Assembly (NCBI GenBank): GCA_021776235.1
Contig: JAJFGG010000016.1
Span: 1 to 64,000 of the forward strand
Length of the DNA stretch: 64,000 bases
Origin: Alphaproteobacteria bacterium
GTDB taxonomy: Bacteria; Pseudomonadota; Alphaproteobacteria; GCA-2731375
Direction: 5' to 3'
The notes under the pieces were generated by a model. The model did not search any database, was not told the DNA's origin, and worked only from the letters and a program-made list of their open reading frames with translations. The number at the start of each line of letters is the position of its first letter. Within the stretch, counting starts at the first letter, position 1. The position numbers and the translations under genes were made by a program. Positions 1 through 41,652 of the stretch are shown piece by piece.

Positions 1-1081
1 CCGCCATGACCCGGTCCGGGGCGATCGCCGCCAGGGCGCCCAGCACCGCGTCCACCACCCGGTAACCGGTCAGGGCGCGGGCCGCCACCGCCGCCGGCAT
101 GCGGGGGTTCAGGATCGAACCTTCCGCCGCCGTAACGGTAATACAGCGATAGACGCCGGCATTGTTCGGCACCTCGCGCCCCAGGGCGCAGCGGATACCC
201 AGATAGGTCGAGGATTTGGTATAGGACAGGGTGCAATTGATGGCGCCCTTGACCTGGGGCGAGGAGCCTTCGAAATCCACCTCCAGATGATCATCCTGCA
301 CTTCGATGGCGCAGACGATGGGGATCGGGCCCTGCGCGAAGCCGTCATCGTCGATATAATCCGTGAAAACGTAGCGGCCATTGGGCCAGGCGCGAATGGC
401 CTGCCGGGTCAAGCGTTCGCCATAGTCCAGCAAGGCATCGAAATAGCCATGCAGAGTCTCAGCGCCGTGCTTCTTGAGCAAATTTACAAAGGCCCGTTCG
501 CCGACATTGCAGGTCGCCAATTGGGCCTGTAGATCACCGATCAGCATGTCCGGCAGGCGTACGTTGGTTCTCAGCAAGGCAAACAGGGAACGGTCGGCCT
601 GGCCGGCGGCGTACAGCTTCAAGGGCGGGATGCGCAGGCCTTCCTGGAAGATCTCGGTTGAATCCGAGGCATTCGATCCCGGCACCCGGCCCCCCACATC
701 GGAATGATGGGCGATGACCACGGCAAAGCCCTGCAATGCATCGGCGTGAAAGATCGGCTTGAACATAAAGATGTCCGGCAAGTGCATGCCGCCGGCATAG
801 GGATCGTTCAGGATGATGACATCACCGGGCGCCAGATCGTCGCCATATTCAGCCAGCACCACGGCCATGGCGTCGGGCACCGCGCCCAGATGCAACGCAA
901 CGGTCTTGGCCTGGGCCAGAATGCGCCCGCGGGCATCGCAAATGGTGGCGGAATAGTCCAACACGTCACGCACGATGGGCGAACGCGCCGTGCGCATCAC
1001 CGTGTAGGCCATATCGTCGACCATGGTATCCAGGCCATTCTTGATCACGGCAAAAGTGATCGGATCAATCTCAATGGCCAT
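1..1081 (-). CDS. hyuB: Hydantoinase B / oxoprolinase family subunit, partial (3' end outside window)
   Basis: About 360 codons from the N-terminus are visible; the C-terminus runs off the left edge. The protein opens MAIEIDPITFAVIKNG, the usual start of the HyuB/oxoprolinase-B family, and carries LNDPYAGGMHLPDI, the family's NDP-G-H motif. In known pairs, HyuA and HyuB together carry out ATP-dependent opening of a five-membered cyclic amide such as 5-oxoproline, an N-methylhydantoin or a related ring in the cytoplasm; the ring opened here cannot be read from sequence. The ATG overlaps the hyuA stop codon (TAATG), so the two are translationally coupled with hyuA upstream. Family assignment is firm, substrate unknown. 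Confidence 0.9.
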   Translation of the reverse strand, partial: MAIEIDPITFAVIKNGLDTMVDDMAYTVMRTARSPIVRDVLDYSATICDARGRILAQAKTVALHLGAVPDAMAVVLAEYGDDLAPGDVIILNDPYAGGMHLPDIFMFKPIFHADALQGFAVVIAHHSDVGGRVPGSNASDSTEIFQEGLRIPPLKLYAAGQADRSLFALLRTNVRLPDMLIGDLQAQLATCNVGERAFVNLLKKHGAETLHGYFDALLDYGERLTRQAIRAWPNGRYVFTDYIDDDGFAQGPIPIVCAIEVQDDHLEVDFEGSSPQVKGAINCTLSYTKSSTYLGIRCALGREVPNNAGVYRCITVTAAEGSILNPRMPAAVAARALTGYRVVDAVLGALAAIAPDRVMA

Positions 1082-3183
1082 TATCCCGTTTCCTCCGTCA
1101 GCTCGATCAGCAGATTTCCCAAACTGTCGCCCCTTACCCGGCCCTCGGGCGGCACCACCACCGTGCTGTCCGTGCTTTCAAGGATCATCGGGCCGGCCGC
1201 CGCACCGCTAAAGTTCCGCCGATCGAGAACCGCCGTTTGCAGCCAGCCATGCTGCCGCCCAAAATAGACCTTGCGCTCAGCCGCCTGTCTTGGCGCCTCG
1301 TCCGGTTCGGCAACCTTCAAGTCACAAAAATCCAGCTTTCCCGGACGCACGCCCCGGGACAGCAGGCGCAAGTTCACCACCTCGACCGCGTCGTCCGCGG
1401 CATACTGGTAGATGGCCTCGTAGGCGGACAGAAATTGCCGGCGCAACCAGGCTACATCCGCCTGCGCCACGTCATCGGGCAACAATACGGGCAGTTCGGA
1501 ATCCTGACCCTCGAAGCGCAGTTCAAGGCTGAAAGCGAACAGCATCTGTTCAGCGGTGAAGTTCTCCCCGCGCAGGGCCGCTTCCGCCTGTCCCCGCAGC
1601 GCCGTCACGGCAGCCTCCAGCGCGGCCAAATCCAGATCCTTTAGCAAACCCGGCATGGCAGTCAGGAAATGCCGCTCCACATCACCTGTCAGCATGCCCA
1701 GCGCGGTGAAAACCCCCGGCATCATGGGCAGCATCACATTGGTGATATCCAGGCTGCGGGCCAGATCGCAGGCGTGCACCGGGCCGCTGCCGCCAAATGC
1801 GGCCAGGGAAAAATCCCGGGGATCGATGCCGCGCTCCACACTGACGGCGCGGATCGCCCGGGCCATGTTGGCGTTGGCGACCTCGCGAACCCCGAACGCC
1901 GCCGCTTCCAGCGACAGGTTCAAGGGCCGCGCCAGATCCCGTTCGATCACCATGCGCGCCTGGTCTATGTCCAGCTGCAGACCACCGCCAGCCAAAGCGC
2001 CCGGCAAATAGCCCAGAACGACGTTGGCATCGCTGACCGTGGGCCGTTCGCCGCCGCGGCCATAGCAGGCCGGCCCCGGATCGGCTCCGGCAGAAACCGG
2101 GCCGACATGCAGCAGACCGCCATCGTCGATCCAGGCAATGGAACCGCCGCCGCTGCCGACCTCCGCGACATCCACGGTGGGCACCCGCATCATGTAACCA
2201 CCCGCCTTGATAAAACGGGCCGGGGTGGAAATACCGGCCCGGAATTCGTACTCGTTGGCGCGGGAGATCTCGCCGCCCTGCACCAGCGAGGCCGAAGCCG
2301 TGGTCCCGCCCATGTCGAACACCACGATATCCTCCTCTCCCGCCGCCCGGCCCAGGCGGGCCGCGCCCACGACACCGGCTGAACGGCCCGATGAGACAAA
2401 GAAAACCGGCTTCTCCTGGGCTGTACGGGCGGCCGCCAGGCCGCCATTGGAATCGCTGACCAGCAGGGGTGCCCGCACTCCAATGGCCAACAGACCCTCG
2501 CCCAGGCGCCGCAAATAGGATTGCAGGACCGGCAATACATAGGCGTTTACCACCGCCGTGGAAGTACGTTCGTATTCGCGCATTTCCGCGAGCACCGAGA
2601 CCGACGCCGTAATAGCCAGGCCGGGGAGACTTTGCCGCAGCACCGCGTCTGCGCGGCGTTCGTGGTCAGGATTGCGGAAGCTGTTGATAAAGCAGATGGC
2701 TATAGATTCGACGCCCGCCGCCGCCAGATCTGCGCCGACGCCGCGCAATTCCTCTTCATCCATCGGCGTCACGACGGTGCCGTCGGCGGCGATCCGTTCC
2801 GTCACTTCCCGGCGCAGGCGGCGGGGCACCAGGGGAGCCGGTTTGTCCCATTGCAAATCGAACATATCCGGCGTGCGCACGCGGCCAATCTCCAGCACAT
2901 CGCGGAAACCCCTGGTGGTGATCAACCCGGTACGAGCGCCGCTTTGCTGCAACAAGGTATTGGAGCCCACCGTGGTGCCGTGCAAGACCTCGAGCAGATC
3001 GCCGGGCTGCAGACCAGCCCGCCGCAACATGTCAACGACGCCGGTCAGGACCGCCTGCTCGGGCTGGGCCGGGGTGGAGGCGCATTTATGGAACCAGGTC
3101 CGCCCCTGGCCATCGCTCAATACCAGGTCCGTGAAGGTCCCGCCGATATCGACGCCAATCCGCGCGCCATTACCCATCGTCAT
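1081..3183 (-). CDS. hyuA: Hydantoinase A / oxoprolinase family subunit
   Basis: ATP-binding partner of the downstream HyuB. The N-terminus has GVDIGGTFTDLVL, the phosphate-binding motif of the hydantoinase/oxoprolinase N-terminal domain. A second nucleotide-fold segment, VFDMGGTTASASLV, opens the hydantoinase_A domain about 280 residues in. Length (about 700 residues) is typical. I chose the ATG at 3183 because GGAG lies six bases upstream; ATGs at 3198 and 3195 are in frame, and the GGAG falls inside that extension. It phosphorylates or activates the cyclic amide so that HyuB can hydrolyse it, by analogy with N-methylhydantoinase and 5-oxoprolinase. Substrate is not deducible. No transporter or regulator is visible beside the pair on this side. 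Confidence 0.9.
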   Translation of the reverse strand: MTMGNGARIGVDIGGTFTDLVLSDGQGRTWFHKCASTPAQPEQAVLTGVVDMLRRAGLQPGDLLEVLHGTTVGSNTLLQQSGARTGLITTRGFRDVLEIGRVRTPDMFDLQWDKPAPLVPRRLRREVTERIAADGTVVTPMDEEELRGVGADLAAAGVESIAICFINSFRNPDHERRADAVLRQSLPGLAITASVSVLAEMREYERTSTAVVNAYVLPVLQSYLRRLGEGLLAIGVRAPLLVSDSNGGLAAARTAQEKPVFFVSSGRSAGVVGAARLGRAAGEEDIVVFDMGGTTASASLVQGGEISRANEYEFRAGISTPARFIKAGGYMMRVPTVDVAEVGSGGGSIAWIDDGGLLHVGPVSAGADPGPACYGRGGERPTVSDANVVLGYLPGALAGGGLQLDIDQARMVIERDLARPLNLSLEAAAFGVREVANANMARAIRAVSVERGIDPRDFSLAAFGGSGPVHACDLARSLDITNVMLPMMPGVFTALGMLTGDVERHFLTAMPGLLKDLDLAALEAAVTALRGQAEAALRGENFTAEQMLFAFSLELRFEGQDSELPVLLPDDVAQADVAWLRRQFLSAYEAIYQYAADDAVEVVNLRLLSRGVRPGKLDFCDLKVAEPDEAPRQAAERKVYFGRQHGWLQTAVLDRRNFSGAAAGPMILESTDSTVVVPPEGRVRGDSLGNLLIELTEETG

Positions 3184-3198
3184 GCACAACTCCATCAT

Positions 3199-3567
3199 TC
3201 GGTGATTTCGACCCGGGTCAGGTTAGCAGGAATCTCTATCCCGGTTTTGAAATAGGCCGGCGGACAACATCTTTCATGACCGGAAAGCCCTGTCGGCTCT
3301 GCTGCGGGTGATGGGGATGGCCCAGCTTCATGGTGTCTGTATCACCCGCACCGATGCCATGCCGTTGCCGCCCGCCTGCATTAGCAGATGACGGGTGATC
3401 AAATTCGAGAATGTTCTGTCGCCATCGCAGTGCAAATTACGCCCGGCGCTCCATTATTTAGACTGTTTAAATAAACTTGTTAGACTGTCCAGACAATATT
3501 AACTACCCATTTTCTGCCATATACGGCTTTACATCACGAAGAATACTACCAAAGTCTTAATAAGCAT
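3199..3567. other. Intergenic region upstream of the cyclase module, no gene seen
   Basis: No supported gene. The stretch separates the minus-strand hyu pair from the plus-strand cyclase and turns AT-rich from about 3450. It contains a 9-bp direct repeat TTAGACTGT at 3458-3466 and 3480-3488 (22 bp apart, two helical turns), a GTTTA-N2-TAAAC inverted repeat at 3465-3476 and TGTC-N2-GACA at 3486-3495. These lie upstream of the promoter at 3568 and could be regulator sites; that is inference. Confidence 0.5.
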
Positions 3568-3596
3568 TTGACAGTATCCACAACATAAATTATACA
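3568..3596 (+). promoter_or_regulatory. Sigma-70 type promoter of the cyclase gene
   Basis: TTGACA at 3568-3573 and TATACA at 3591-3596 are separated by exactly 17 bases. This is a near-perfect housekeeping promoter in an AT-rich stretch, 45 bases upstream of the GTG start of the cyclase gene. The spacing is that of an ordinary promoter, not the 19-20 base spacer typical of MerR-activated promoters. Confidence 0.75.
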
Positions 3597-3626
3597 GTCC
3601 AATTGTAATCAGCGACTGAATTGGAC
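3597..3626. promoter_or_regulatory. Inverted repeat overlapping the transcription start, candidate operator
   Basis: GTCCAATT at 3597-3604 and AATTGGAC at 3619-3626 form a perfect 8+8 inverted repeat with a 14-base spacer. It begins directly after the -10 hexamer and ends 14 bases before the GTG start. A dimeric protein bound here would block initiation. The helix-turn-helix protein encoded immediately downstream is the obvious candidate (autorepression); this is inference from position. Confidence 0.55.
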
Positions 3627-3640
3627 ACCATAGGTAGACA

Positions 3641-5176
3641 GTGGTTAGCAGCAAGGAATTGATGGCGCTGGGTGCGATATCGAGAGCGACACTGAACAAC
3701 TACATCGCTCTTGGAATTTTGCCTAAGCCCATAGTGAAGACGCCTCCAGCCGGTCAGGAGCGTGCGCGCAAGATCGGCTATTTCCCGGACGAGGCGGTGC
3801 AGCGCATCAAGGCCGTCCAGCGGTACAAGGATGAGGGGTTGAGCATGTTGGAAATCGCCGAAAAATTCTCGCCGGATGAAGAATTCTCACCGCGTGAAGA
3901 AACGACCCCTCCCCTCCCAATCGCGGCCGAAGCCAAGCCAGCGCGGCCGGTCGAGATACCAGCGTTGACCGAAATGCGTGTGACACTCGATAGGCTCGAA
4001 AACGCGGCCTACATGGTCAACTATAACTTCGAGATTGAATGGGCCAACGCAGAAGCAACCAGCGGGTTCTTTGGACTGTCCGAAGGCTTTGAGCCCGAGA
4101 TCGAGGCGCGCAGCTTCTTCAAGCTGTTTTTCAATTCGGACATAGCAACGCCGTCAGAAGACCGGGAAGAGCTACTGCGCTTCCATCTCGCCATCGCGAA
4201 GATCAGATTGCCCAAAAGGTCCCTCGCCAAACTTGGTCTATATATAAGCGACGAAGATTTGCAGCTGGTGCAGAATCTCTATGACGAGACCGAAGAGATG
4301 CACCTCAGCCCCGTTGCCACCACCCGGGTAAATCTGGCGGCAGCGGCAAGCGAGCCGAACTGGCAGGATGTCTATGCCACCGTGTTTCGCGAAGGGGTGC
4401 TCTTTGTACATCAGTCGGCGGAGGCGCCGGCGGAAAGCGTGCTGGCCCTGCTGTCCCGGCGCGAGCAGCTGATCCGCAACCTGGTTCGAAGCCGCCAGCC
4501 GGTACTCACCCCCCTTTGTGTCATGGTCGCGGATCTGCAGGATTCGGTGAAGATATGCGCCGAATTGCCGCCGGAGGAATATTTCGAGCTGATCAACCAG
4601 ATCTGGAAAATCTCCGAACCCCTGCTGCGGAAATACCATGCAACCCAAGGCAAGCATGTTGGTGACGGTATGGTTTCGTATTTTTTCCCCCAGCCGGACC
4701 GCAACTACCTGTTAAACGGCTTCCAATCGGCCCGGGAATTGAAGCAAAGAATGCGGGAACTGAGCAAGGAATGGCAGCTGCGCAAGAACTGGACAAACGA
4801 GCTCTATCTGAACATAGGACTGAACGAAGGGGAGGAATGGTTCGGCACCTATCATTCCGATACAAACCTCGAATTCACCGTGCTTGGCGATACCATCAAT
4901 CATGCCGGGCGGTTAAGTGACTACGCCCATTTTGGCTCTATTTGGGCAACTAAGAACCTGATGGGTAAATTGAGTGCCGACGAGCGCGAGAAAATCAGCT
5001 TTGGCATTCGCCGGACCGATCGGGACGGCCAGGAAATTCGGATTCCCGCCAGCTATTCACGGCTGGCCAATCTGATCGATCTGAACGAAGGAAAATTCGA
5101 GAAATTCCGCGATATTGGGACCCTTCCCGTTACCGAGGTATGGGACCTGAATTTCGACAGGCATTCGGGAGACTGA
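3641..5176 (+). CDS. MerR-type HTH / PAS-like / class III adenylate cyclase fusion
   Basis: 511 residues. Residues 1-75 form a MerR-like winged helix (SSKELMALGAISRATLNNY...GYFPDEAVQRIKAVQRYKDEG). Residues about 110-240 begin like a PAS domain (AAYMVNYNFEIEWANAEA). Residues about 290-490 are a class III cyclase catalytic domain. Catalytic residues are complete: metal Asp298 (VADLQDS) and Asp342 (KHVGDG) exactly 44 apart, purine-selecting Lys338 with Thr413, and transition-state Asn420 and Arg424 (TINHAGR). The Lys/Thr pair marks class IIIb and predicts ATP as substrate. The GTG start at 3641 is needed to include the whole HTH. No membrane segment is present, so it is a soluble DNA-binding cyclase. 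The downstream gene binds cyclic nucleotide, 41 bases away. The PAS ligand is unknown. Confidence 0.85.
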   Translation: MVSSKELMALGAISRATLNNYIALGILPKPIVKTPPAGQERARKIGYFPDEAVQRIKAVQRYKDEGLSMLEIAEKFSPDEEFSPREETTPPLPIAAEAKPARPVEIPALTEMRVTLDRLENAAYMVNYNFEIEWANAEATSGFFGLSEGFEPEIEARSFFKLFFNSDIATPSEDREELLRFHLAIAKIRLPKRSLAKLGLYISDEDLQLVQNLYDETEEMHLSPVATTRVNLAAAASEPNWQDVYATVFREGVLFVHQSAEAPAESVLALLSRREQLIRNLVRSRQPVLTPLCVMVADLQDSVKICAELPPEEYFELINQIWKISEPLLRKYHATQGKHVGDGMVSYFFPQPDRNYLLNGFQSARELKQRMRELSKEWQLRKNWTNELYLNIGLNEGEEWFGTYHSDTNLEFTVLGDTINHAGRLSDYAHFGSIWATKNLMGKLSADEREKISFGIRRTDRDGQEIRIPASYSRLANLIDLNEGKFEKFRDIGTLPVTEVWDLNFDRHSGD

Positions 5177-5217
5177 TCGTGGCAGGCGCCGCGCTTCAAC
5201 CAGGGAGGAATACGAAA

Positions 5218-6456
5218 ATGGCTTCTTTGCAAATGATGGAAAGAAAAAATGAGAGGGCCTTTTCAAGGCGCTTCACTGCCGGAGAGGAAATCTTCCGGAT
5301 GGGCGATCGGGGGCAAAGCGCCTACATCATCGAGCGTGGAAAGGTCGAGGTTTCGACCATGCGGGTTGGCGAGAAAATGATTATCGCCGAACTTGGCAAC
5401 GGCGAGATATTCGGTGAAATGTCCATGATGGATGACGCGCCGCGGTCGGCGACAGTGACGGCGACAGAGGATACTGAAGTCATCGTCATAGACCGGGCCC
5501 GTTTTCACCGGCCCTGCGGTAACCGCGACCCGTTGATGAACATGCTGCTGCGGGTTTTGCTGACCCGCTTGCGCGATACTCAGCAAAAGCTTTGCGGCAC
5601 GGCGGCGGGGACGAGCAAGTCCGATCGATCGACGAAGGAAATTCAACAATCCGCAATCCGCCAGATAAAAATTGAAGACGATATGCACCGCGCCTTCGAG
5701 GCCAGGGAGTTCGAGCTGCATTACCAGCCGATCGTGGCGCTTGATAGCGGCCATCTCGCCGGATTTGAGGCCTTGATGCGTTGGCATAGGCAGGACGGCA
5801 CATTTGTTTCGCCCATGGAATTCATTCCATTGGCCGAAGAATCCGGTCTGATCGTGGAACTCGGCCGCTGGGCGTTGGAGCGCGCAATAAGGGATCAAAT
5901 CCAGTTTGCGAAACATGTCGGCAGGGTGTTTCCCTACCTGACACCGGGCTTTATGAGCGTCAACGTATCTGGTTTGCAATTGTCCGAGCTGAATGAAATC
6001 GATCTGATGGCGGACATCATCCATCAAAGCGGTGTTGATCCCTCCACCATCAAACTGGAGTTGACCGAAACTTTGTTGGTCGAAGATCCCGAACATGCCG
6101 CGGAGGCGTTGAAAAAAGTCAAGGAATTGGGCGTATCGATTGCGATCGATGATTTCGGCACGGGCTATTCAAGCCTGAGCTATCTGCATCAATTTCCGCT
6201 GGATACCCTCAAGATCGACCGTGCCTTCATAAGTAATATGGACAAGTCCGAAAACAGCCGGCGAATTGTCAATAGCATCACGCAACTCGCCAGCGCCCTG
6301 GAACTGGACATGGTGGCAGAGGGCATAGAGGAGAAGGCGCAAATGGACGCCTTGCGGGAATTGGGCTGCGAGTCGGGTCAGGGATATTACATGGCGAAAC
6401 CGGCGTCGGCGGAGATGACCATGAAATTGATTAAACGCCGGCCCAGTTGGCAATAG
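5218..6456 (+). CDS. Cyclic-nucleotide-binding / EAL c-di-GMP phosphodiesterase
   Basis: 412 residues. The ATG at 5218 is chosen because GGGAGG lies nine bases upstream; an upstream in-frame ATG at 5140 would overlap the previous gene and lacks a site. Residues about 12-115 are a CRP-type cNMP-binding domain with the phosphate cassette FGEMSMMDDAPRSATV (Glu67, Arg76). Residues about 155-405 are an EAL domain with EALMRW (Glu184), NVSGLQL, LELTET, DDFGTGYSSL, LKIDRAFI and VAEGIEE; all metal- and base-forming residues are retained, so it should hydrolyse c-di-GMP to pGpG. There is no GGDEF domain and no membrane segment. Together with the cyclase just upstream it suggests cAMP-gated c-di-GMP breakdown (inference). 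Confidence 0.9.
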   Translation: MASLQMMERKNERAFSRRFTAGEEIFRMGDRGQSAYIIERGKVEVSTMRVGEKMIIAELGNGEIFGEMSMMDDAPRSATVTATEDTEVIVIDRARFHRPCGNRDPLMNMLLRVLLTRLRDTQQKLCGTAAGTSKSDRSTKEIQQSAIRQIKIEDDMHRAFEAREFELHYQPIVALDSGHLAGFEALMRWHRQDGTFVSPMEFIPLAEESGLIVELGRWALERAIRDQIQFAKHVGRVFPYLTPGFMSVNVSGLQLSELNEIDLMADIIHQSGVDPSTIKLELTETLLVEDPEHAAEALKKVKELGVSIAIDDFGTGYSSLSYLHQFPLDTLKIDRAFISNMDKSENSRRIVNSITQLASALELDMVAEGIEEKAQMDALRELGCESGQGYYMAKPASAEMTMKLIKRRPSWQ

Positions 6457-6524
6457 CCGCATCCCGGCCCACTGCACAACGCCATCATCCGCTAATTTTG
6501 GCCCGGATGCGGCCCGGATGCGGC
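6456..6524. repeat. Tandem 11-bp repeat with near-complementary upstream arm
   Basis: GGCCCGGATGC occurs twice in tandem at 6500-6510 and 6511-6521. GCCGCATCCCGGCC at 6456-6469, starting at the stop codon of the EAL gene, is nearly complementary to either copy, so two alternative hairpins are possible. No T-tract follows, so an intrinsic terminator is not supported. Confidence 0.4.
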
Positions 6525-6600
6525 TCGTATGATCTCCAAGCATGGTTACGAATTATGCTATGATTTGACCGGTGTGTGAAAATCCAGGGGAACCGGCAAT

Positions 6601-8913
6601 ATGCAAATCGTGACCGATAAACAAGCTGTGGGCCAATCGGTCTCGCGCTCGGAAGATCCGCGCCTGTTGCGGGGCGATGGGCGCTATACCGATGATATCA
6701 ATCTACCTGGCCAGGCCCACGCTTTTGTCCTGCGTTCGGCCCACGCCCACGGCATTATCCGGGCCATTCATTTGGACGCCGCCCTGGCCATGCCCGGGGT
6801 GGCGGCGATCTATACCGGGGTCGATTTGCAGGCTGCCGGTTATGGCCCCCTGCCCTGTCTTTTGCCGCTGAAAAGCCATGATGGCAGCCCTTTGATGGTG
6901 CCCGAGAACCCGGCCCTGGCGATCGACCGGGTACGCTACCTGGGTCATCCGGTCGCCGCCGTGATCGCCGATACAATCGCCGAGGCTAAGGATGCGGCCG
7001 AGGCGATCCGCCTGGATATTGAAGAACTGCCGGCGGTGGCCGATGTGGAGGCCGCCGCGGCCGCCGATGCACCGCAGATCTGGCCGGATATCCCGGGCAA
7101 CATCTGCCTGGATTTTCACGCGGGCGATTTCGCTGCGGTGGATGCGGCTTTCGCAAAAGCAGCCCATGTCAGCCGTTTGAAAATTCTCAACAACCGCCAG
7201 GTCGTCGCGGCCATGGAGCCACGCGCCGCGGTCGCTGAATATGGTACCCAGGACGGCCGTTTTACGTTGCATGTGGGCTGCCAGAGTACTTTCGGCATGA
7301 AGGGCAGCCTGGCCAACAAAATTCTGAACGTAGCGCCGGAACAGGTCCGGGTGCGGACCTATGACGTGGGCGGCTCGTTCGGGATGAAATCGCCGGTCTA
7401 TCCGGAATATGTCGCCATTCTGCATGCCGCGCGCTGCCTGGAACGGCCGGTGAAATGGTGTGACGAGCGCAGCGGCAGCTTCACCTCTGATCAGCACGGC
7501 CGGGATTCCGTTGTCGAAGCCGCGCTGGCCCTGGATGAAAATGGCAATTTCCTCGCCGCCCGGGTCGACGGCCTGGCCAACATGGGGGCGTTTCTCTCGA
7601 CCGTCGGCCCCAACGTACAATCCGGCAATATCTTCAAGAATTTGCCCGGTGTGTACAAAACTCCGGCCATTGCGGTCACCACAAAATGCCTGTTTACCAA
7701 CACGACGCCCATCAGCGCCTATCGTGGCGCCGGCCGGCCCGAGGCCAATTATTATATGGAACGACTGGTTGATCTGGCGGCCCGGGAAACCGGACGTGAT
7801 CCACTTGCCCTGCGCCGGATCAATATGATCCCCCGGCAGGCCATGCCCTTTACCTCCGCCTCGGGCCAACCTTATGACAGCGGTGATTTTCCGACCCTGC
7901 TGTCGCGCTGCGTGGAGCTGGCGGATTGGCATGGCTACGATGCCCGCGAGGCCGCCAGCCGGGCCAAGGGAAAGCTGCGTGGCCGGGGCCTGGCCTGCTA
8001 TCTGGAGGTCACGGCGCCCGCCGGCAAGGAAATGGGTGGTGTCCATTTCGAGGAAGATGGAACCGTCAGTCTGATTACCGGCACACAGAATTACGGCCAG
8101 GGCCATGCCTCGGCCTTTGCCCAGGTGCTGGCCGATCAACTGGGCCTGCCGTTTGACAGCATCCGCCTGATGCAGGGCGACAGTGATCGTTTGTTGGTGG
8201 GGGGGGGCACCGGGGGCTCGCGCTCGATCATGGCAAGCGGGGCCGCCATTGTCGCGGTCAGCGCACAGGTGATCGAAAAGGCCCGCCATCTGGCAGCCCA
8301 AAAATTGGAGACGGCGGTCGAGGATATACAGTTCGAAGGCGGCAAACTTGGCGTCGTGGGGACGGACAGAAGCATCGATTTGCTGGAACTGGCCCGGTCG
8401 CCCGAGGGGCTGGCCGGTGATCTGAATAGCGCCCTGGCAATCGACACGCCACCATCGACCTATCCCAACGGGGTCCATATCTGTGAGGTCGAGATCGACC
8501 CGGAAACCGGTACAGCCCGGCTGGACCGCTATATTCTGGTTGACGATTTCGGCACCTTGGTGAACCCCCTGCTGGTCGCCGGTCAGGTCCATGGCGGCAT
8601 TGTGCAGGGTATCGGCCAAGCCCTGATGGAGCATGCCATATTCGACGGCCAGGGCCAATTACTCTCGGGTTCGTTCATGGACTATGCTCTGCCCAGGGCC
8701 GATCAGGTGCCCGACATCCAGTTCGAAGATCATCCCGTACCTGCCACCACCAACCCCCTCGGGGTCAAAGGTTGCGGCGAGGCCGGCACCACCGGGGCCC
8801 TGCCGGCTGTCATGAACGCCGTCGTGGACGCCCTGGCCGAATTCGGTATCCGGCATATTGATATGCCCGCCACGCCGGAAAAAATCTGGAAAGTCATAAA
8901 CGCCGCAGCCTGA
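6601..8913 (+). CDS. Xanthine dehydrogenase/CoxL-family molybdopterin-binding subunit (form II-like), orphan
   Basis: 770 residues, the normal length of an aerobic CO dehydrogenase/xanthine dehydrogenase large chain. An N-terminal a/b hammerhead domain (residues about 20-130) is followed by the molybdopterin domain with GGSFGMK, the active-site loop [13 protein letters not shown] and the C-terminal [12 protein letters not shown] carrying the catalytic Glu. True form I CO dehydrogenases have AYRCSFR; the AYRGAGR loop marks the form II/general hydroxylase group, so CO is probably not the substrate. AGGGGA lies nine bases before the ATG. The FAD (CoxM) and 2Fe-2S (CoxS) subunits that normally sit beside it are absent here, so they must be encoded elsewhere. 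The reaction would be hydroxylation of an unknown heterocycle or aldehyde. Confidence 0.85.
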
Positions 8914-39810: not shown

Positions 39811-41652
39811 ATGAACCGGGTGGAGAACAAAAGCAGCAAAAGTTCGCGCCGCTGGGGCCTGGCCCCGACCATGGCGCTTATTATTGGTGGCCTTGTCCTG
39901 TCAGCGTCCATCGCCATCGCCGCATTGCAATGGCGTACCTCCAAGCAACTTCTATCCACCCTCGGAATGCGGGCGATCGACCTCAATCTGGACTACATGG
40001 AAAGTGCCATCGACGGATATTTGACGCCGGCGCGGCGGCAAATTGAACAGATAGCGGCCTTGATTGAAGCTGGACAGTACGGCTGGGAGGATCCAGCCAG
40101 ACTGAAAGACCTGATGGCTGGCGCGATCGCCGCCGTACCGCAAGTTGGCGGCATGATTTTGCTGGACGGCGAATCACGGATAATGCGAGCCTGGCGCAAT
40201 TCGGAAAATGCAAGAATCGCCGTCGACCAGCTCGAACCGGATTCTATTGCCAGGTTGATAAAAGAACTCGGAAAATCGTCCGGCAATCAGGGCACGTATT
40301 GGGGTGGCATCGTCCGGGGCGAGCAGACCAACGACGCCTTTGTCAATGTAAGGCGTTCTATTCAGACCGCCGGCGTTGACAGTGGGCTCATTGCCGCCGG
40401 CGTTACGGTCGGTAATCTGTCTTTACTGCTAGCCAATATCTCGGGAGAGGCGGATCGGGTCGTCTACATCAGATACGGCAGTGACCGAATACTGGCCCAC
40501 CCATTGCTGGCCTTGAGCGGGGCCATCGAAGAAGATGGAGAGGTGCTGCCGAGCTTGGACCTTTTGGGCGATCCGGTGCTGGCCAATCTCGACAAGGCAG
40601 AAGCGCCACCCCTGGATGATGCAACACTGACGGAAGGCACCAGTTTCCGCCAGATTTCCGTCCGGGGAACGCGCTATTTCATATTCGAACGAAACGTCCG
40701 TCGATTTGGCACCGAAGCCGTGACCATCGGTGTCCATGTGCCTGCCGCGAATGTCGACGCGCCAATCCGTCAGCTTTATTTATCCGGTGTCGTGGCGATC
40801 GGGATGGTGGTGTCCGCGCTGTTAATAGCGCTGATGGTCAGCGGCCTGGTTACACGGCCGATCCGCCGCATTTCCGAGGCAGCCATCGCCATTGGCCAGC
40901 TGCGTCTTGCCGACGCAGGCAATGTCAGGCCCAGCACGATCCGTGAAATCAATGACCTGTCGACTGCCTTCAACCGGATGCTGGTCGGACTGCGTGCCTT
41001 CGAAACCTATGTGCCCAGAAAGCTCGTCGGCCGTTTGATCGAATACGACAGGCCGGACGCCATTGCCTCGGAAAGCCGCGACCTGACCGTTATGTTTACT
41101 GATATTGTCGGCTTCACCACGATGAGCGAAGGGATGGATGCAAAGGAAGTCGCTGACTTCCTCAACAGCCATCTGACCCTGCTGTCCGAATGCATCGAAG
41201 CGGAAGGCGGCACGGTCGACAAATTCATCGGCGATGCCGTGATGGCATTCTGGGGTGCGCCGGAGCCGATCGAGAATGATGCTGATCGGGCCTGCGCCGC
41301 TGCCCTTGCCATGATTGCCGCGATCGCGGCGGACAATCAAAAGCGCAGCGAAGCGGGACGCCCGCCGGTTCGCATTCGCATCGGCATCCATAGCGGACCG
41401 CTGGTGGTTGGCAATATAGGCTCGCCCTCGCGGATGAATTACACGGTCGTCGGGGACACGGTGAACACGGCCCAGAGACTGGAAAACCTGGGCCGTGAGG
41501 TAGACCCGGATGCCGAAGTCATAGTTTTGGTCAGTGATGCGACACGGGCTGCTCTGCGCGGCGGCTTTGATCTGCGCGCCGCGGGTGGATTCCAAGTCAA
41601 GGGCAAACACAATCCTATTCAAGTATACCGGCTGTTTGGCGGAGACGCATGA
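39811..41652 (+). CDS. Membrane-bound sensor class IIIb adenylate cyclase (CACHE-like/HAMP/cyclase)
   Basis: 613 residues: membrane segment 1 at about 22-40, a periplasmic sensor of about 280 residues resembling dCACHE, membrane segment 2 at about 325-350, HAMP (TRPIRRISEAAIAIGQL), then a class III cyclase domain from about 410. Metal residues Asp431 (FTDIVGFT) and Asp475 (KFIGDAVMAF) are 44 apart; Lys471 and the Thr of YTVVGDTVN mark class IIIb and ATP specificity, and the catalytic Asn and Arg follow in VNTAQR. The enzyme should be active. It is an independent second cAMP source in this window, with no adjacent effector gene. Confidence 0.93.
   Translation: MNRVENKSSKSSRRWGLAPTMALIIGGLVLSASIAIAALQWRTSKQLLSTLGMRAIDLNLDYMESAIDGYLTPARRQIEQIAALIEAGQYGWEDPARLKDLMAGAIAAVPQVGGMILLDGESRIMRAWRNSENARIAVDQLEPDSIARLIKELGKSSGNQGTYWGGIVRGEQTNDAFVNVRRSIQTAGVDSGLIAAGVTVGNLSLLLANISGEADRVVYIRYGSDRILAHPLLALSGAIEEDGEVLPSLDLLGDPVLANLDKAEAPPLDDATLTEGTSFRQISVRGTRYFIFERNVRRFGTEAVTIGVHVPAANVDAPIRQLYLSGVVAIGMVVSALLIALMVSGLVTRPIRRISEAAIAIGQLRLADAGNVRPSTIREINDLSTAFNRMLVGLRAFETYVPRKLVGRLIEYDRPDAIASESRDLTVMFTDIVGFTTMSEGMDAKEVADFLNSHLTLLSECIEAEGGTVDKFIGDAVMAFWGAPEPIENDADRACAAALAMIAAIAADNQKRSEAGRPPVRIRIGIHSGPLVVGNIGSPSRMNYTVVGDTVNTAQRLENLGREVDPDAEVIVLVSDATRAALRGGFDLRAAGGFQVKGKHNPIQVYRLFGGDA

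Follow-up and report, generated by a model that had tools for sequence, protein, structure and literature searches.

The locus examined here raises the question of whether a cyclase and the neighbouring gene for a cyclic-nucleotide-binding c-di-GMP phosphodiesterase work as one signalling unit, in which the first protein would supply the messenger that the second reads and would also bind DNA. The two genes, referred to below as gene 1 and gene 2, lie in a 64,000-nucleotide stretch of an alphaproteobacterial genome, which is called the window throughout. Their domains, together with the regulatory elements found upstream, are collected in Table 1.

Table 1. Features of the gene 1/gene 2 locus, in window coordinates. 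PWM, position weight matrix built from betaproteobacterial relatives.
Feature	Position	Strand	Details and evidence
Operator O1, TTTAGACTGTTTAAA	3457..3471	.	PWM score 16.8
Operator O2, GTTAGACTGTCCAGA	3479..3493	.	22 bp after O1; PWM score 17.2
Candidate promoter, TTGACA-17-TATACA	3568..3596	+	Read from sequence
Operator O3, ATTATACAGTCCAAT	3589..3603	.	Overlaps candidate -10 box; PWM score 16.6
Gene 1, predicted MerR HTH - MmyB-like PAS - class IIIb nucleotidyl cyclase	3641..5176	+	511 aa, GTG start
MerR-type winged HTH, gene 1 residues 1-75	3641..3865	+	Near-invariant SRATLNNYI
PAS-like ligand-binding domain, gene 1 residues 113-262	3977..4426	+	AF2 pLDDT 90; 3pxp Z 10.0, 144 aligned
Class IIIb cyclase domain, gene 1 residues 285-505	4493..5155	+	3r5g (CyaB) Z 22.8, catalytic residues
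Ribosome-binding site of gene 2, AGGGAGGA	5202..5209	+	Sequence; good site
Gene 2, predicted cNMP-binding domain fused to EAL phosphodiesterase	5218..6456	+	412 aa, ATG start
cNMP-binding domain, gene 2 residues 11-119	5248..5574	+	FGEMSMMDDAPRSA cassette
EAL domain, gene 2 residues 150-400	5665..6417	+	Catalytic D311/D312

Domain structure of gene 1

Relatives of gene 1, most of them full length, were found at 62 loci in alpha-, beta- and deltaproteobacteria, and the family is carried by 5 of 398 genomes drawn from the phylum. The original prediction described gene 1 as a MerR-type HTH followed by a PAS domain and a class IIIb cyclase with intact catalytic residues. This description holds for all three parts, with the MerR domain recognised through the relatives, the PAS domain through its AlphaFold fold, and the cyclase through the presence of all six catalytic residues. 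The Pfam model MerR_1 matched gene 1 itself at E=0.0035, with 17.9 bits against a cut-off of 21.6. The assignment is secured by the relatives, of which 44 out of 46 match MerR_1 at E<=0.01. The recognition-helix region reads SRATLNNYI and is almost invariant in the family.

None of the Pfam PAS models matched gene 1, and the Pfam family MLTR_LBD was reached by sequence in just one of 46 family members (E=0.0058). AlphaFold, run on the family alignment, gave a model of the whole chain with a pLDDT of 87. As a structure search with this full model was filled by cyclases, the middle domain was folded alone, and its closest solved structure is then 3pxp, which aligns over 144 of 156 residues, compared to about 100 residues for other PAS domains. 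Judging by the model, the term PAS is correct as a description of the fold, and the nearest known kind is the ligand domain of MmyB/MltR. Regulators of the MltR/MmyB type share with gene 1 the fusion of a PAS-like ligand domain to a DNA-binding domain; to our knowledge, they carry a DNA-binding domain of another type than MerR, and no cyclase. The structure 3pxp is that of MltR from Chloroflexus, an MmyB-like regulator, with myristic acid (PMC3406030), and from this kinship we would guess at a lipid-like ligand for the domain in gene 1.

The C-terminal part of gene 1 matches the Pfam model Guanylate_cyc (E=1.5e-8), and the gene 1 model superposes on CyaB (3r5g) over 190 residues. The six catalytic positions are occupied by the metal ligands D298 and D342, the purine-binding pair K338 and T413, and the transition-state residues N420 and R424. 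Among 46 relatives, D298, D342, K338, N420 and R424 are each conserved in 44-45, and the position of T413 holds a Thr in 37. A Lys/Thr combination is the adenine-type purine pair of class IIIb cyclases, and from K338/T413 we infer that the product would be cAMP and not cGMP. One divergent relative (L013 1477-3021, in genome G012) lacks the equivalents of N420 and R424, and may be catalytically dead. The DNA-binding cyclases of Mycobacterium, such as Rv0386, are like gene 1 class III cyclases fused to an HTH, but this is a LuxR-type HTH with an ATPase region and not the MerR-PAS combination seen here. We know of no operator-cyclase-c-di-GMP arrangement for the mycobacterial proteins.

Gene 2 resembles the cAMP-activated phosphodiesterase Bd1971

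Gene 2 begins 41 bp after gene 1 on the same (+) strand. Its predicted composition, a cNMP-binding domain and an intact EAL domain preceded by a ribosome-binding site of its own, was confirmed by the coordinates, by Pfam (EAL, E=5.7e-71; cNMP_binding, E=1.4e-24) and by the catalytic pair D311/D312. The best solved match is Bd1971 (6hq5/6hq4), aligned to gene 2 residues 24-406 with an E value of ~2e-75. The order cNMP-linker-EAL is shared end to end, as are the phosphate cassette, the base-cap Arg/Leu and the Asp pair: the Bd1971 ligand residues E58, M59, R67, S68, R108 and L109 correspond to E67, M68, R76, S77, R117 and L118 in gene 2, and the catalytic D306/D307 of Bd1971 are kept as D311/D312. 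The two proteins differ at the domain-swap hinge, where Bd1971 has a small residue, Ala94, and gene 2 has Arg103 in place of any small residue (A, G, S or T), so the switch geometry of gene 2 may differ from that of Bd1971.

Bd1971 of Bdellovibrio bacteriovorus (PDB 6HQ4/6HQ5/6HQ7) is a cAMP-activated EAL phosphodiesterase (PMC6717892) that cleaves c-di-GMP only when cAMP or cGMP is bound (PMC8846402, PMC6717892). The sequence comparison places gene 2 as a new enzyme of the Bd1971 type, which was already known, and this close homology makes it plausible that gene 2 reads cAMP. Both genes are under strong purifying selection, with an equal dN/dS of ~0.08 against the nearest species; this fits a joint function, and is not proof of one.

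A conserved operator in the gene 1 promoter

The prediction that gene 1 binds DNA is now better supported than when first claimed, through an operator that is conserved in promoters of the family. The palindrome TRGACWGTCYA occurs at a match of >=10/11 upstream of 44 of 53 family members, with 107 sites in all, against an average of 0.013 in random regions of 232 bases from these loci, and it often lies in or beside a TTGACA-type promoter. As the motif was first seen in those same promoters, a held-out test was made using a PWM built from betaproteobacterial relatives only. This PWM picks out three sites in the window promoter (Table 1), at scores of 16.6-17.2 where the best of 300 shuffles reached 14.8, and it also finds sites in the other alpha- and deltaproteobacterial members, except in the distant L146.

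Across 21 whole genomes (~75 Mb), a scan for the double-operator pattern gave 16 entries in 8 genomes, all upstream of gene 1 homologues, compared to 2 for the reversed pattern that served as control. In the genome of the window, O1-O2 is the sole double-site match. This restriction to gene 1 promoters suggests that the DNA-binding half of the protein is most likely a dedicated autoregulator. Exact single operators number ten in four genomes (G000, G006, G001 and G096), and four of them are in gene 1 promoters, one per genome; going by contig coordinates, the one in G096 (contig C2) is 209 bases upstream of its gene 1. The exact sites away from gene 1 in these genomes appear chance-like, with G+C-rich, coding-like surroundings that differ between species, and were set aside. 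We also rejected as an operator the inverted repeat GTCCAATT-N14-AATTGGAC (3597-3626), which overlaps O3 only in part and was not seen in the promoters of relatives.

The candidate promoter has a spacer of 17 bp, and was not listed by a promoter scan because the scan rule needs a T as the last base of the second hexamer. MerR-type promoters have a long spacer of 19-20 bp that is untwisted by the activator. Because O3 overlaps the candidate -10 box, the sign of regulation would most naturally be negative, with gene 1 most likely repressing its own promoter.

Proposed mechanism

We propose that genes 1 and 2 form a two-gene operon read as one transcript. Gene 1 would be a one-component regulator that binds the palindromic operators in its own promoter, likely repressing it, and its PAS-like domain would sense a small, possibly hydrophobic, ligand. 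Such a ligand would alter DNA binding, cyclase activity or both, and the class IIIb cyclase in the same chain would make cAMP. Gene 2 would bind this cAMP via its cNMP domain and then cleave c-di-GMP via its EAL domain, in the manner of Bd1971. The net result of a signal would be more operon expression and more cAMP, and less c-di-GMP. The domains, catalytic residues, operator, co-orientation and selection that enter into this model are supported by sequence and comparison, and what the model predicts beyond them is the ligand, the choice of cAMP over cGMP, the sign of regulation, the activation of gene 2 and co-transcription. We consider the overall model, an operon of an autoregulating sensor-cyclase and a cAMP-gated c-di-GMP phosphodiesterase, to be somewhat probable.

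The dedicated operator would also suit a purely transcriptional link, in which gene 1 represses and derepresses the operon according to its ligand and so sets the dose of gene 2, with the cyclase acting as a regulatory or nucleotide-sensing domain and not as a source of messenger. Further points in its favour are that the partners of gene 1 relatives are often not cNMP proteins (PAS-GGDEF-EAL and PAS-HD-GYP proteins, for instance), and that the distant L013 relative has lost two catalytic positions. However, almost all of the 46 relatives retain the catalytic residues, which argues for catalysis by the family, and we regard a purely transcriptional role as improbable.

Enzymes of c-di-GMP turnover beside gene 1 relatives

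One check proposed with the original prediction was whether the adjacency of the two genes is conserved in other genomes. Within the window's genus it is so in part: gene 1 with a cNMP-EAL neighbour was found in three species, or 3 of 11 genus genomes, and nowhere else, and one of the three has a broken gene 1. The gene 1 orthologue of that species (L071 466-1799), which comes from a metagenome contig of low coverage, has lost part of its sensor domain through an internal deletion that is accompanied by a frame break; the operators, the cyclase part and gene 2 remain. The position of the pair also differs between species. In the window (1081-8913) it sits between hydantoinase- and xanthine-dehydrogenase-like genes, and in G006 (L143 2311-11631) it lies outside this junction, so either the two genes relocated together or the region underwent rearrangement.

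For the wider gene 1 family, EAL, GGDEF or HD-GYP domains are encoded by 19 of the 106 genes at positions +-1, compared to 4 of 446 genes farther out, an odds ratio of ~24. These loci are less independent than the raw Fisher p of 3e-11 implies, since counting clusters of relatives once gives p values from 1.4e-3 to 3e-6, depending on the identity threshold. On the family tree, the presence of a c-di-GMP neighbour changes at least 7 times, and most gene 1 relatives have no such neighbour. The nearest relative outside the window's genus, which is 65% identical to gene 1, is overlapped by 4 bp by a GAF-HD-GYP gene (L040 1408-2823). In the Gallionella homologues, a PAS-GGDEF-EAL gene lies 2 bp downstream of gene 1. 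The Polynucleobacter homologue has a MASE1-PAS-GGDEF-EAL gene upstream and a convergent GAF-HD-GYP gene, the Smithella homologue is convergent with a PAS-HD-GYP gene, and the relative at L093 is flanked by HD-GYP and GGDEF genes. Taken together, the pattern supports the view that the gene 1 family is functionally linked to c-di-GMP turnover. That link would not necessarily run through cAMP, as several of these partners contain no known cAMP sensor.

The GAF-HD-GYP partners at L040 and in Polynucleobacter have the same architecture as a known system of cAMP-gated c-di-GMP breakdown, which differs from gene 2 in both its sensor and its catalytic domains. At a further locus (L080 251-4272), a CHASE2-cyclase gene lies 125 bp downstream of a gene 1 relative, on the same strand.

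Is the cAMP channel private?

The genome that contains the window (G000, 6.36 Mb) has 49 class III cyclase domain matches, a very large set, which makes a private cAMP channel between the two genes doubtful. A second class III cyclase, in a frame of 618 aa, is found within the window itself (41071-41619). Solo relatives of gene 2 are found in G002, G011 and G001, and among about a dozen other cNMP-EAL contexts an adjacent cyclase occurs in one only, G093. There (L134 9033-12548), a cNMP-EAL gene is divergent from a CHASE2-cyclase gene, with ~85 bp between them, and forms an independent cyclase/cNMP-EAL neighbourhood. A cNMP-EAL profile scan of 398 phylum genomes returned mostly plain EAL proteins, with five hits of full length. 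For Bd1971, several annotated adenylate cyclases were considered as possible cAMP sources, and its description names no neighbouring cyclase partner (PMC6717892). The idea that gene 2 reads the cAMP of its neighbour is thus plausible in so far as it rests on homology to Bd1971; exclusive reading is not supported, given the 49 cyclase domains, the solo relatives of gene 2, and the occurrence of the pair in just 3 of 11 genomes.

These observations would fit a looser arrangement, in which gene 1 would be an autoregulated source for the general cAMP pool that serves CRP-like factors, and gene 2 a general cAMP-gated reader of the same pool, the two being neighbours by chance or through weak co-regulation. 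The size of the cyclase set, the solo gene 2 relatives with G093 as the one other context with an adjacent cyclase, and the unrelated neighbours of most gene 1 relatives are all as it would predict. A general pool sits less well with the ~24-fold enrichment (as an odds ratio) of c-di-GMP genes beside gene 1 relatives, or with L040, where a different c-di-GMP phosphodiesterase overlaps gene 1. We see this arrangement as possible but on balance unlikely, and retain the operon with a sensor-cyclase and its cAMP-gated neighbour as the preferred model.

The original prediction went too far in stating that no well-described system was known with this exact combination, as the cNMP-EAL enzyme has a counterpart in Bd1971 (PMC6717892) and a linked cyclase and cNMP-c-di-GMP enzyme are found in XC_0250/XC_0249 (PMC3770947). 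In this Xanthomonas campestris system, a class III cyclase gene is linked to that of a cNMP-c-di-GMP enzyme, and cGMP is made by one protein and read by the other (PMC3770947). What genes 1 and 2 share with it is a cyclase gene next to one that encodes a c-di-GMP enzyme with a fused cNMP domain. The effector domain of XC_0249 is however GGDEF, by which c-di-GMP rises, whereas the output domain of gene 2 is EAL and c-di-GMP would fall; the Xanthomonas product is cGMP and that of gene 1 is predicted to be cAMP; and XC_0250 has TPR and lacks a DNA-binding domain, whereas gene 1 has the MerR HTH. By analogy, the gene pair would work like XC_0250/XC_0249 but shift c-di-GMP in the other direction, and it does not belong to that system.

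With K338/T413 being the adenine-type pair of class IIIb enzymes, it is quite improbable that gene 1 makes cGMP instead of cAMP and that gene 2 reads it. What speaks for such a route is that XC_0250/XC_0249 use cGMP (PMC3770947), and that Bd1971 is activated by both cAMP and cGMP, with its Ser68 contacting guanine N2 (PMC6717892); the equivalent residue in gene 2 is Ser77.

An apparently undescribed regulator family

No NCBIfam model fits gene 1 or the two relatives that were compared, and no paper on a MerR-cyclase fusion was found in the searched literature, in which subscription papers were thinly covered. An ‘adenylate cyclase domain’ in a paper on LitR was rejected, as it is the two-hybrid reporter. 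By the libraries and literature searched, the gene 1 family, a MerR-PAS-cyclase with its own operator, is apparently undescribed, although such an absence is weak evidence. A broader and rather unlikely proposal is that gene 1 belongs to a hitherto undescribed family of one-component regulators in which a single chain, held at its own promoter, senses a ligand, autoregulates through an operator and synthesises cAMP, and that this family has repeatedly recruited neighbouring c-di-GMP enzymes (cNMP-EAL, GAF-HD-GYP and PAS-GGDEF-EAL) to read the locally made cAMP.

The gene 1 family, with an operator conserved across three proteobacterial classes, offers a handle on a type of regulator for which we found no description. 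In the window, the predicted messenger source, transcription switch and reader would be brought together in a single small operon whose operator is defined. The question of whether one bacterial cyclase can feed a chosen effector amid many other cyclases would thereby become testable with two proteins and one promoter.
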